From contig JABMDG010000047.1 of the NCBI GenBank assembly GCA_015904045.1, positions 19,162 to 30,601 of the forward strand: a DNA stretch of 11,440 nt, in the 5' to 3' direction. This stretch comes from Nitrospira sp. Lineage in GTDB: Bacteria > Nitrospirota > Nitrospiria > Nitrospirales > Nitrospiraceae. The notes under the pieces were generated by a model. That model had not been told where the DNA came from. It worked only from the letters and a program-made list of their open reading frames with translations, and did not search any database. Both the position numbers and the translations under genes were made by a program. Numbering within the stretch: position 1 is the stretch's first letter; every line of letters begins with the position of its first letter. Below, in pieces: positions 3,938 to 7,223 of this stretch.

Positions 3938-5689
3938 TCAAGAAGCGGGTACAGGCCTGGAGGGGGTCCATCCTCCACCCAGCGCTTTAAACAGGCTGAC
4001 CATCTCGGTGAGGCGAGCCCGTTCGGTGAGGACCAGCTGGGTCTCCGCCGTCAAGACGATTCGTTGCGCGTCCAGCACATCCAAATAGGTGACCATGCCG
4101 TTGCGGTAGCGGACCTGAGCCAATCGCACCGCCTCCTGTGCCGCGGTCAGTTGTGCTCGCTGATGGGTGAGCTGCTGGCCCCGTGTGTGCAGGGAAACCA
4201 GCAAATCGGCAACTTCCCGGAAAGCCAACAAGATGGTCTGTCGGTAGTTCTCCAGCAGTTGTTGGTACTGGGATTCGGCATGATCAAGACGAGCCAGGTT
4301 CGTTCCCCCTTGGAAGATGGGCAAGGTGACCGACGGGCCGATACTGTAGTTGAAGCTGTTGCCGGTAAACCACTTGGCGAAGTCCGCGCTCTGAAGCCCA
4401 CCCTGCCCGGTAATCATCAGGGTCGGAAAGAAGTACGCGCGAGCCTGGCCAATGCGGGCATTGGACGCCACGAGTGTCGCTTCTACCTGGAGAATGTCCG
4501 GGCGCCGTTCAAGCAGCTGAGAGGGGAGTCCCACCGGGATGTTCGGTTGGGCAATCACGGCACGAAGAGGCTTGCGGGCGAGATCAAGTGATCCTGGTGC
4601 CATTCCGGTCAAGACCTCAAGTCGATGGGATTCGATGGCCCGTAACCTCGTCAAGTCGGGAATAAGGCCTGCGGCTTCCGCGACAAGTACCTCCGTCCGT
4701 TTGACGTCCAATTCTGAAGCTAATCCAACCGCTGCGCGCTTCTGGATGATCTCAAGGGATTCTTGGCGGACGGCATGAGTCCGCGAGGCGATATCGAACT
4801 GTTCATCCAACTCTCTGATGCGAAAGTACGATTGTCCCACATCACTGATAAGCGAGAGGGCAACGGCGCGAGCGTCTTCTTCGATTGCTTTGGTTTCGGC
4901 CTGGGCGGCTTCTCGGCCTCGCCGGATACGGCCCCAGAAGTCGAGTTCCCAGCGAAGATCCATGGCGCTGTTCCAGAGGTCAAACGTGGTTCCAGGACCC
5001 AGACCGGTCTGGGTGCGGATGCGTTGGACCACGTCTTCAACCGGAACACCATCCTTGGCTTTTGCCAGGACATAGGAGAGTGTGCGGCGTTCGCGCGGAA
5101 CATACCGCATCGCGCGTTCATAGGTGGTGTATACGACGGGGATATTTGTGAAGCTCTTCTGTGTCTTGGCAATTGCCACGACTCGGGCGAGTTTGTCGTT
5201 CAACTCAAAGATAGTCCCGATCTTGACGACTGTCGGACCGCCCATCCGTTCGACGGCCCACTGATCGAGGACTACGGCATCCGGTTGCAGAATGTCTTCG
5301 AACCGACCTTCAAGGATTTGGGCGGGACGTCCGATCAGTGTGGCCGATTCGAGCCCGGTTAAGGTGATCTGGTGGTAGTCCCCATCAGCGAGGCGAGCCC
5401 GAAGCAGCCCCTTATACAGCGGGACCGCCCATTCCACTCCGTCGACACTTCTGACGCGATCGACCCCGGTGCTGGCGATGGGTTTGACTTCGTCTACCTG
5501 GGCTATGCCGGGATCCGTGACCCAGATCGGCACATTGAGATTGCTGATGTTGGCTTGGGACCACATCATGAGGCCCCAGAAAATTGAGCCTTGTTGCACG
5601 ATCAACATCACGGCAAAGGTCAATCCACAGAGCAACATGAGATATTTGGCACGATCGCCGAAGAGCATCTTGAGGGCAACGTAGTTCAT
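3938..5689 (-). CDS. Chimeric ORF: DevC-like permease N-terminus fused to NodT-family outer-membrane protein C-terminus
   Basis: A continuous 583-residue frame made of two unrelated proteins. Residues 1-231 match the permease at 8931-10061 with 12 substitutions: cytoplasmic start, one transmembrane helix (about 18-40) and the periplasmic MacB-like domain. At residue 232 the sequence switches to codon 140 of an outer-membrane efflux protein. It then runs through the coiled-coil helices, the hallmark IPVGLPSQLLERRPDI and a typical NodT-family C-terminus. The join falls at 4996/4997, is in frame, and coincides with the end of a 100-bp direct repeat. The FtsX half of the permease and the first half of the outer-membrane protein are missing, so I do not expect either normal function. 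The start overlaps the preceding gene as ATGA, and a sigma-54 promoter copy lies upstream, so it may be expressed. Confidence 0.85.
   Translation of the reverse strand: MNYVALKMLFGDRAKYLMLLCGLTFAVMLIVQQGSIFWGLMMWSQANISNLNVPIWVTDPGIAQVDEVKPIASTGVDRVRSVDGVEWAVPLYKGLLRARLADGDYHQITLTGLESATLIGRPAQILEGRFEDILQPDAVVLDQWAVERMGGPTVVKIGTIFELNDKLARVVAIAKTQKSFTNIPVVYTTYERAMRYVPRERRTLSYVLAKAKDGVPVEDVVQRIRTQTGLGPGTTFDLWNSAMDLRWELDFWGRIRRGREAAQAETKAIEEDARAVALSLISDVGQSYFRIRELDEQFDIASRTHAVRQESLEIIQKRAAVGLASELDVKRTEVLVAEAAGLIPDLTRLRAIESHRLEVLTGMAPGSLDLARKPLRAVIAQPNIPVGLPSQLLERRPDILQVEATLVASNARIGQARAYFFPTLMITGQGGLQSADFAKWFTGNSFNYSIGPSVTLPIFQGGTNLARLDHAESQYQQLLENYRQTILLAFREVADLLVSLHTRGQQLTHQRAQLTAAQEAVRLAQVRYRNGMVTYLDVLDAQRIVLTAETQLVLTERARLTEMVSLFKALGGGWTPSRPVPAS
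4897..4996. repeat. 100-bp perfect direct repeat, copy 1
   Basis: Identical base for base to 6707-6806. It encodes codons 140-172 (plus one base) of the outer-membrane efflux protein on the minus strand. Bases on either side differ (T/C on the left, A/G on the right), so the repeat is exactly 100 bp. It marks one border of the inserted 1,710-bp copy. Confidence 0.97.
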
Positions 5690-6099
5690 GGTTCTGCCTC
5701 GGGGTCTGGATGGTCAGGAGGGTACGCAACGACCTTCGGGAGTTGGGGAAGAGTTACCCGGTCGTGCCGATGGAAAAAATAGGTGCAGAGGCGGGCGATG
5801 GGACAGCCTTGGGAGAGAGCTGTTGTCCAGAACCGCCGCACGTGCTCGCCGTTTGCCGATTGCTCTTCATCCCAAAGCCGAAAGGGCCCTGGAAAGGATC
5901 TTGAGAAGGTGATGCCTCTGGCTGCCAAACGTTCGGCCAGCCCTTCAGTGAAGAATTCCAACACGTCGCCGCACCAAGAGAACCGTCTCCCATCTTTGCT
6001 CTGTTCACCGGACGGCAGAAGTTCAGCTTGCCGTGTCGCGAAGTGTTCTTCGATAGTACGGCAGACGTATTCAGGAGTCAGAGAAGTGTCCGGCTTCAT
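5686..6099 (-). CDS. Unknown 137-residue protein, copy 2
   Basis: This is a paralogue of the protein encoded at 10058-10471, with 11 substitutions in 137 residues and no frameshift or early stop. Changes include Arg13 to Cys, Met76 to Trp and Ala126 to Pro. I do not recognise the family. It is predicted soluble, with a hydrophilic helical N-terminus (EYVCRTIEEHFATRQ), a central WCGD and a conserved segment SQGCPIARLCTYFFHRHD. The ATG at 6099 is the only in-frame start that also exists in the other copy. It lies only about three bases after the start site predicted from the -24/-12 promoter at 6113-6128. Its stop overlaps the chimera start as ATGA. It belongs to the inserted copy. Confidence 0.75.
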   Translation of the reverse strand: MKPDTSLTPEYVCRTIEEHFATRQAELLPSGEQSKDGRRFSWCGDVLEFFTEGLAERLAARGITFSRSFPGPFRLWDEEQSANGEHVRRFWTTALSQGCPIARLCTYFFHRHDRVTLPQLPKVVAYPPDHPDPEAEP

Positions 6100-6112
6100 G
6101 CCGGGAAATCAA

Positions 6113-6128
6113 AGCAGGGACAGTGCCA
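6113..6128 (-). promoter_or_regulatory. Sigma-54 (-24/-12) promoter, inserted copy
   Basis: The minus strand reads TGGCACTGTCCCTGCT, with the invariant GG and GC ten bases apart as in the RpoN consensus TGGCAC-N5-TTGCW. It differs from the promoter at 10485-10500 by two bases, both between the invariant pairs. It should drive the second 137-residue gene and the chimeric ORF. Confidence 0.8.
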
Positions 6129-6228
6129 ATCCGGAACATGACCGGTCAGCTACTCGCAAGTCGTCGAAGTTGGTCGGAGAAATGGGGAGGACATGACCGA
6201 TGCGGGCGAAGGACGATACCAAAAACTC

Positions 6229-6273
6229 TGCCGATATGTTGGCAGATGTAGAGGGACTGCCAATATATGGGCA
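6229..6273. promoter_or_regulatory. Tandem TGCC-N8-GGCA dyads, inserted copy (likely enhancer sites)
   Basis: Two 16-bp dyads (6229-6244 and 6258-6273) lie 29 bp apart centre to centre. All arms are identical to those at 10601-10645. The 100-bp spacer between them and the promoter differs at roughly a quarter of its bases between the two copies, so the arms look selected. They are the likely binding sites of the EBP encoded at 10647-11440. Confidence 0.65.
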
Positions 6274-6274
6274 A

Positions 6275-6706
6275 TTATTTTGAGTGAATTGAGTCGCGTC
6301 GAATGCCGAGTTTTTTCATCCGGTGTTGCAGTGTCGATCGCTTCATCCCCAGGCGGGCTGCGGCGCCGTGCTTGCCGGCTAAGACGCCATTGGTCTGACG
6401 GAGGGTTTCGAGAATATGGATGCGTTCGGCATCGGCCAGCGTACGAGGGGCGGCCGCTTTAGTCAGATCCTCATCCGGCCCTGCGAGTTCGTCAATGACG
6501 AGAACGGGTTCGCGACTGACGATGACCGCACGCTCAATGACGTGCTCCAATTCGCGCACGTTTCCCGGCCAGTCATAGGATGCGAGTGCGTTCAATGTCC
6601 CTTGAGCAACCCGTGTGATGGGCCGGCGGTGCCGTTCACTGTATTTCTTCACAAAGTGCCGTGTGAGCGACGGGATGTCATCGCGCCGTTCCCTGAGCGG
6701 CGGAAC
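6275..6706 (-). pseudogene. 3' remnant of a sigma-54 enhancer-binding regulator gene
   Basis: This holds only about the last 143 codons of the regulator, from VPPLRER (end of the AAA+ core) through the Fis-type helix-turn-helix to the stop. It has about ten substitutions relative to 10647-11078, and the DNA-recognition segment (GAAARLGMKRSTLQHRMKKLGI) is unchanged. The ATP-binding and sigma-54-contact parts are absent. At 6706/6707 the sequence becomes outer-membrane gene sequence in another frame, so the remnant has no proper start; a TTG in the repeat could give an out-of-frame leader, but nothing supports its use. If it were translated, it would be a bare DNA-binding domain able to compete for the dyads. 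Confidence 0.85.
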
Positions 6707-7223
6707 CGGCCTGGGCGGCTTCTCGGCCTCGCCGGATACGGCCCCAGAAGTCGAGTTCCCAGCGAAGATCCATGGCGCTGTTCCAGAGGTCAAACGTGGT
6801 TCCAGGGGTTGCGAAGATCGACGGACCCGGCCGTTGGCCGGTCGCCAACCCTAACCCTGCCAAGGTGTTCTCAGAGACTGCGATGTTGGTGTAAGAACTG
6901 GAGAGGTTCATATGCGGGAAGAGACCGGCTGTCGCGGACATCACAGAGGCGCGGCCTTCGAGGATTCGAGCGACCGCGCGTTTCACATCGTGATTGTGCT
7001 GCAGGGCTCGTTCAACTAATTCAGAAAGTTCGTCATTCTGAAACTCCTTCCACCAAGTAGCTTCTGGCCCCCGATCGGATGAAACTGTGGTCGCGATGGG
7101 AGCGAGTCTGGACCAGCTGTCCGGCGTCTCTGTATGAGGGCGCTGGTAGTTGTCCCCTTGTACACAGGCAGACAGGGTCAATGCCGTGAGGATCATTCCG
7201 AGGGTGGGCGTCGTGCGGCTCAT
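6678..7223 (-). pseudogene. Truncated outer-membrane efflux lipoprotein, NodT family (5' part)
   Basis: The outer-membrane channel of the exporter, cut short. The frame opens with a signal peptide and lipobox LSAC (Cys20), then the family's N-terminal region, and WNSAMDLRWELDFWGRIRRGREAAQA (148-172), the segment that begins the helical domain in NodT/OprM proteins. After residue 172 it runs into the regulator remnant out of frame and stops nine residues later (181 in all, against about 450-500 for the family). The missing residues 173-491 are encoded at 3938-4899, in frame after a repeat of codons 140-172. The ATG overlaps the adaptor stop as ATGA (7220-7223). A product lacking most of the helices and half the barrel strands should not form a channel. 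Confidence 0.88.
6707..6806. repeat. 100-bp perfect direct repeat, copy 2
   Basis: Identical to 4897-4996, in the same orientation and 1,810 bp away. It encodes the last native 33 codons of the truncated outer-membrane protein. Confidence 0.97.

Follow-up and report, generated by a model that had tools for sequence, protein, structure and literature searches.

ATP-binding cassette (ABC) exporters of the DevBCA type with a TolC/NodT-like partner are the closest described relatives of an operon in a Nitrospira sp. contig (JABMDG010000047.1, assembly GCA_015904045.1, positions 19,162 to 30,601; this stretch of 11,440 nucleotides is the window in what follows). Here as there, DevA-, DevB- and DevC-like subunits and an outer-membrane protein are encoded in one operon; the scores of the window, however, lie under the curated Dev cut-offs, and the exporter is a predicted one. 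In the window, the NodT-type outer-membrane gene is cut in two by 1,710 bp of homologous operon DNA from another Nitrospira lineage, and exact direct repeats of 100 bp flank this insert. For such a join, the closest described cases are errors of metagenome assembly and scaffolding: the relevant passages of PMC7111523 and of the COBRA paper (PMC10914622) treat duplicated overlaps of about maxK and two organisms per contig, and the former describes both scaffolding that leaves duplicated overlaps and two-organism chimeras. The window differs from the cases in these passages in that a homologous piece of 1.7 kb lies between the overlaps and that there are no Ns. We consider a chimeric contig to be the most likely explanation, with moderate confidence. 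Among the papers listed in literature searches, no report of the exact arrangement was seen.

A NodT-type gene in two overlapping pieces

The genes of the operon lie on the minus strand in the order sigma-54 regulator, small gene, DevC/MacB-like permease, ATP-binding subunit, HlyD/DevB-like fusion protein and NodT-type outer-membrane gene. The window is Nitrospira DNA, as among 63 permease loci each operon gene has its best DNA match in a metagenome-assembled genome (MAG) labelled Nitrospira or Nitrospirae. The features are listed below, "own" denoting the operon outside the insert.

3938..5689, minus strand: fused open reading frame (ORF) of 583 residues, permease residues 1-231 plus outer-membrane protein residues 140-491 (ORF listing, Pfam)
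4897..4996, minus strand: direct-repeat copy 2, 100 bp, codons 140-172 (exact repeat search)
4997..6706, minus strand: insert, 1,710 bp, front end of the homologous operon from another Nitrospira lineage (alignment to 9369-11078)
4997..5014, no strand: 18-bp perfect palindrome, its first base being the insert's first base (palindrome search)
4997..5689, minus strand: start of the permease gene in the insert, first 231 codons, lineage B (protein comparison)
5686..6099, minus strand: intact small gene in the insert, 137 residues (ORF; weakly DUF6022-like, PF19486, E 4e-5, 23.9 bits, cut-off 25)
6114..6128 (insert) and 10486..10500 (own operon), minus strand: sigma-54 -24/-12-like element GG-N10-GC (loose pattern only; no match to a stricter pattern)
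6275..6706, minus strand: end of the sigma-54 regulator gene in the insert (AAA_lid_14, HTH_8; 32 differences in 432 nucleotides)
6688..6706, no strand: inverted repeat with 5-bp stem and 9-nucleotide loop, ending at the insert's last base (inverted-repeat search)
6678..7223, minus strand: NodT-type outer-membrane gene, truncated: residues 1-172, followed by 9 residues translated from the insert (alignment to relatives; TIGR01845 below cut-off)
6707..6806, minus strand: direct-repeat copy 1 in the direction of transcription, 100 bp, codons 140-172 (exact repeat search)
7220..8209, minus strand: HlyD/DevB-like membrane fusion protein (profile matches)
8206..8934, minus strand: ABC ATP-binding subunit, DevA/LolD-like (profile matches)
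8931..10061, minus strand: own intact DevC/MacB-type ABC permease, 376 residues, lineage A (Pfam MacB_PCD and FtsX; devC below cut-off)
10058..10471, minus strand: own small gene, 137 residues (scanned with Pfam in the insert copy only)
10647..11438, minus strand: own sigma-54-dependent regulator, C-terminal part, continuing beyond the window (Pfam Sigma54_activat, AAA_lid_14, HTH_8)

Repeat search and alignment bear out what an earlier note on this DNA had read from the letters, namely that bases 4897-4996 and 6707-6806 are identical and encode codons 140-172 of a NodT-type gene. The two copies of this 100-bp repeat are spaced by 1810 bp. Elsewhere, no exact direct repeat exceeds 48 bp in 94 loci that total about 0.81 Mb with some overlap; thus, the repeat stands above background. 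Its left base, 6707, is a C and fits the regulator homologue as well (the own operon has C at 11079), which leaves 99 or 100 bp as the true length of the duplication.

The N piece (6707-7223, minus strand, 172 residues) aligns to residues 1-172 and the C piece (3938-4996, minus strand, 352 residues) to residues 140-491 of intact Nitrospira relatives such as P0006, P0007 and P0012; the pieces have 33 alignment columns in common. The existence of these intact 491-residue proteins also confirms the normal length of the split gene that the note had proposed. Against the curated cut-off of 210.05 bits of the NodT family profile TIGR01845, the fused ORF reaches 320.7 bits over its outer-membrane part and passes, whereas the N piece alone reaches 103.3 bits and stays below. 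Decay is absent from both gene pieces and from the insert.

With the shared part left out, the identities to the nearest relative, P0002, are 92.1% (N) and 97.4% (C). For 24 pairs of relatives with a C identity of 96-99%, the N identity has a mean of 91.0 and a standard deviation of 4.2; moreover, the N and C identities of the window are correlated across the relatives used (0.91). As the values for P0002 are within the expectation for one gene and the correlation is high, both pieces most likely derive from one lineage, as judged from protein comparison. An origin of the two pieces from different strains is not supported, the N and C identities fitting one gene. At the DNA level, the best matches among the 63 loci differ by little: L001 for the N piece (84.8 versus 83.1%) and L003 for the C piece (85.4 versus 84.4%).

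Two Nitrospira lineages in one contig

The content of the insert had been described in the note as a copy of the operon's front end. The inventory stands, as regulator end, intergenic region, small gene and permease start are all present; the origin had to be corrected, because the insert is an 88.8% homologue from another lineage and not a copy of the own front end. Compared with bases 9369-11078 of the own operon, 1519 of 1710 positions are identical, with 191 differences and no gaps. Third codon positions account for 72 of the 84 differences in the permease part, for 25 of 36 in the small gene and for 22 of 32 in the regulator part. Between the genes, 136 of 175 positions agree. By sequence comparison, this pattern is that of two working homologues long separated and not of a fresh copy. 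A duplication of the operon's own front end within the cell is rejected on account of the 191 differences and the prevalence of third positions among them.

The protein comparison leads to the same view. The permease part of the insert is identical to P0121 at 230 of 231 residues, and P0121 runs on past the junction as a normal permease of 376 residues. The insert permease groups with 16 protein clusters (P0121-P0136), to which it is 97.0-99.6% identical over its 231 residues and all of which are intact 376-residue permeases from other contigs. The own permease is 98.9% identical to P0143 and about 94% identical to that group. Because the two permeases belong to different clusters, the contig joins, on the evidence of these identities, DNA of two Nitrospira lineages, A (own operon) and B (insert). 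Among the outer-membrane proteins listed (the best 120 of 2789), none lies on a contig of the same length as one with a lineage-B permease protein, which hints that lineage B may lack the outer-membrane gene or carry a diverged one.

Origin of the join

With the own operon as a stand-in for the donor DNA, the two joins share 0 and 1 nucleotides with it. The insert starts exactly at the 18-bp palindrome, one of two palindromes in the window with arms of at least 7 (those with arms of at least 9 number 20 in the fetched loci, or 24 per Mb), and an inverted repeat like that at its end closes at 1.1% of the window positions; note that the coincidence with the insert ends was noticed after the fact and carries no strict significance. 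A closely similar palindrome lies at the corresponding place of the permease gene in L001 and in two of four genomes. The single-strand folds of the four break sides are unexceptional (z -1.17, 0.64, 1.57 and -0.80, the first value being that of the palindrome), and at the right junction the predicted fold prefers another stem than the inverted repeat ending there. If meaningful, hairpins at the insert ends would fit a template switch or a hairpin-ended fragment, be it in the cell or in library chemistry. A location of the right junction in a multi-copy regulator motif that tangles assembly graphs is not supported: at up to 3 mismatches, four genomes contained 8 matches to its 20-mer (0-4 each), compared with 6 to the reversed control (1-3 each). 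The left-junction 20-mer matches the permease gene in two of the four genomes, on both strands as expected of a palindrome, with one extra 3-mismatch match elsewhere in one of these two.

In agreement with the earlier note, a Pfam scan of 14 ORFs detected no transposase; it also detected no integrase. The window contains no inverted repeat pair of at least 25 bp, the lengths this search covered. Target duplications of insertion sequences usually measure 2-14 bp, and a duplication of 99-100 bp does not match an insertion sequence or transposon with a short fixed one. As to a mobile element with this segment as cargo, the phage search gave no match; the plasmid search gave one record, whose two short matching pieces amount to 6% of the query and lie under an outer-membrane efflux gene.

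The arrangement was seen in one contig. Among the matches listed (120 of 2789), the fused ORF forms a one-member cluster from a single contig of 39,299 bp, and no other listed protein covers more than 64% of it, although short junction-bearing fragments could sit unseen within other protein clusters. Of 79 genus genomes, 69 gave some match (at most four candidates scored per genome), and none of the matches listed crosses a junction (query positions 100/101 and 1810/1811) by more than 4 bases. Viral contigs gave no match to the junctions, which is weak evidence, the collection being viral. In a survey of 175 family genomes (E <= 1e-150, two candidates scored per genome), the insert-like operon occupies a single place in 53 of 53 matching genomes, and one strong place each was found in four genomes for which all candidates were scored. 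A second resident copy is thus without precedent in the genomes examined. At the DNA level, a repeated stretch of operon genes occurs in one of the 63 loci, L004.

Under the chimeric reading that we favour, the join arose in sequencing, library preparation or assembly. The outer-membrane gene would probably be continuous in the source organism, a Nitrospira of lineage A; assembly or library would have put a 1.7-kb homologous operon stretch of lineage B at a break in this gene, and the 99-100 bp on either side of the insert would be an assembler end overlap retained twice. The join would then have been made in the library or the computer, not in the cell. Such a chimera would account for the mixture of lineages, for reading frames without damage, for the missing second example and for the length of the duplication. 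Two lineages in one contig, a mark of an assembly chimera, are present, and L004 adds a scaffold join of 100 Ns with mismatched regulator pieces in the corresponding operon. With respect to the overlap, the relevant passage of PMC10914622 gives maxK for metaSPAdes and MEGAHIT or maxK-1 for IDBA-UD, and 99 bp for k 99 or 100; according to that of PMC7111523, the overlap is n with IDBA-UD and n-1 with metaSPAdes, so that the two passages disagree by one base. The 99-100 bp agree with the overlap for a maxK of 99 or 100, an agreement conditional on the assembler used for this contig, and what the note had called a target duplication may be such an end overlap and need not stem from the chemistry of an insertion.

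Several points weigh against a chimera. Two-organism chimeras are called rare in the passage by Chen et al. 2020 (PMC7111523) that treats them. The join in L004 is marked by Ns and is therefore not the same kind of error; both junctions of the window are free of Ns, and the 1710 bp contain no indel. By reasoning, a plain de Bruijn contig with k <=100 cannot hold one 100-mer twice, so that the joins must have been crossed by reads or made by a later scaffolding or merging step. The palindrome and the inverted repeat at the insert ends fit a physical molecule, from the cell or from library chemistry, better than a purely computational join. These ends and the absence of Ns are left unexplained by a chimera. 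If the contig is nevertheless chimeric, a clean, N-free and frame-preserving metagenome join can mimic a new insertion mechanism, and a false fusion protein of 583 residues has been added to databases.

The main competitor, which we regard as possible yet doubtful, is a real and recent insertion without transposase, in which sister-lineage Nitrospira DNA taken up by the cell entered the outer-membrane gene. Either a staggered break with 100-nucleotide ends would have been filled in, or a polymerase would have switched from codon 172 of the gene to the donor operon, copied it and returned to the gene at codon 140; hairpins would have set the donor ends, and the knocked-out gene could revert by recombination between the repeats. 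The clean, N-free joins and the insert ends at palindrome and inverted repeat speak for it, as does the recurrence of a similar palindrome in relatives. Of 77 genus genomes, 73 encode a ComEC-type competence domain, which makes uptake of relatives' DNA plausible; the lack of the outer-membrane gene from the operon in L008 and L012 indicates that its loss is tolerated, and nearest relatives vary gene by gene, as expected of lineages exchanging DNA. Filler-DNA or templated insertions at double-strand breaks show a comparable arbitrary duplication length, 0-1 nucleotides of join homology and an insert copied from elsewhere; with long target duplications, however, they are best known from eukaryotes. 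Classical end joining in bacteria requires Ku, a protein that is rare in the genus (9 of 77 genomes) and was not found in G001, which belongs to the most syntenic relative; this route is thus not typical of the genus. In addition, the junction sequences fold unexceptionally (out of 200 shuffles each, 28 and 145 folded equally well or better), and protein, genus-genome and viral-contig searches found no support independent of the single contig. A donor equal to the target operon demands a homology-guided step, of which the non-homologous joins show no trace, and the length of 99-100 bp would be a coincidence. Repeats of 100 bp that lie 1.8 kb apart should be readily lost by recombination; given also the absence of decay, any real insertion must have happened very recently. 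The complete scenario, in which a bacterium captures a hairpin-bounded sister-species fragment with neither join homology nor a transposase and is left with 100 bp of the target duplicated and an exporter gene revertibly knocked out, we hold to be unlikely. If true, uncultured nitrifiers would provide a rare example from nature of DNA captured from relatives with no transposase involved and with a very long duplication of the target.

Two further explanations fare worse. All pieces share one orientation and retain the order regulator, small gene, permease, outer-membrane gene, as would the remnant of a tandem operon pair in one genome (from an old duplication or from the gain of a second operon next to the first) cut down by two deletions. 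We rate this remnant as very improbable: the repeat is identical whereas the insert shows 11% difference, a single lineage is the most likely source of both outer-membrane pieces, and the only repeated operon stretch among the 63 loci lies at the scaffold gap of L004, the genomes having one strong place each. The earlier note had also proposed that the insertion might be an off state. A programmed phase-variation switch, in which excision and re-insertion toggle the exporter off and on, could draw on the 100-bp direct repeats, a length sufficient for RecA; the 14 scanned ORFs, however, include no recombinase, no second allele was seen, the relatives examined show no recurrence, and the insert is an undamaged foreign operon piece. 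This makes a switch the least credible of the explanations, and the proposed role has no support.

Further observations in the window and in related loci

The GG-N10-GC element between regulator and small gene is kept in the insert and in the own operon; we take it to resemble a sigma-54 promoter. A 32-bp perfect palindrome with 16-bp arms (2537-2568) lies just 3' of a gene for an RRM-type RNA-binding protein (2181-2513) and is perhaps a terminator. With the truncated ORF of 181 residues as query, 13 proteins were obtained, the best being 88% identical; the window's own ORF was also not returned, probably because it lies inside the 90% cluster of a longer protein.

Along the operon (3938-11440), the closest of the 63 loci shifts from L003 (regulator) to L001 (permease front), L011 (ATPase), L001 (fusion protein) and L003 (end of the outer-membrane gene), which suggests exchange between Nitrospira lineages. 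The outer-membrane gene was seen at least in part in 49 of these loci and not in 14, of which at least six stop before its place. L008, L012 and perhaps L018 have an operon without it; in L008, the end of the fusion protein gene is at 8839, and a response-regulator gene starts near 9077. In L004 (4100-4700), two diverged pieces of one domain flank the 100-N gap within the sigma-54 regulator, likely a scaffolding error in a published Nitrospira MAG. L063 (1-2800), a damaged or collapsed contig, has unmatched internal stretches in the permease (residues 153-296) and in the outer-membrane gene (195-327).

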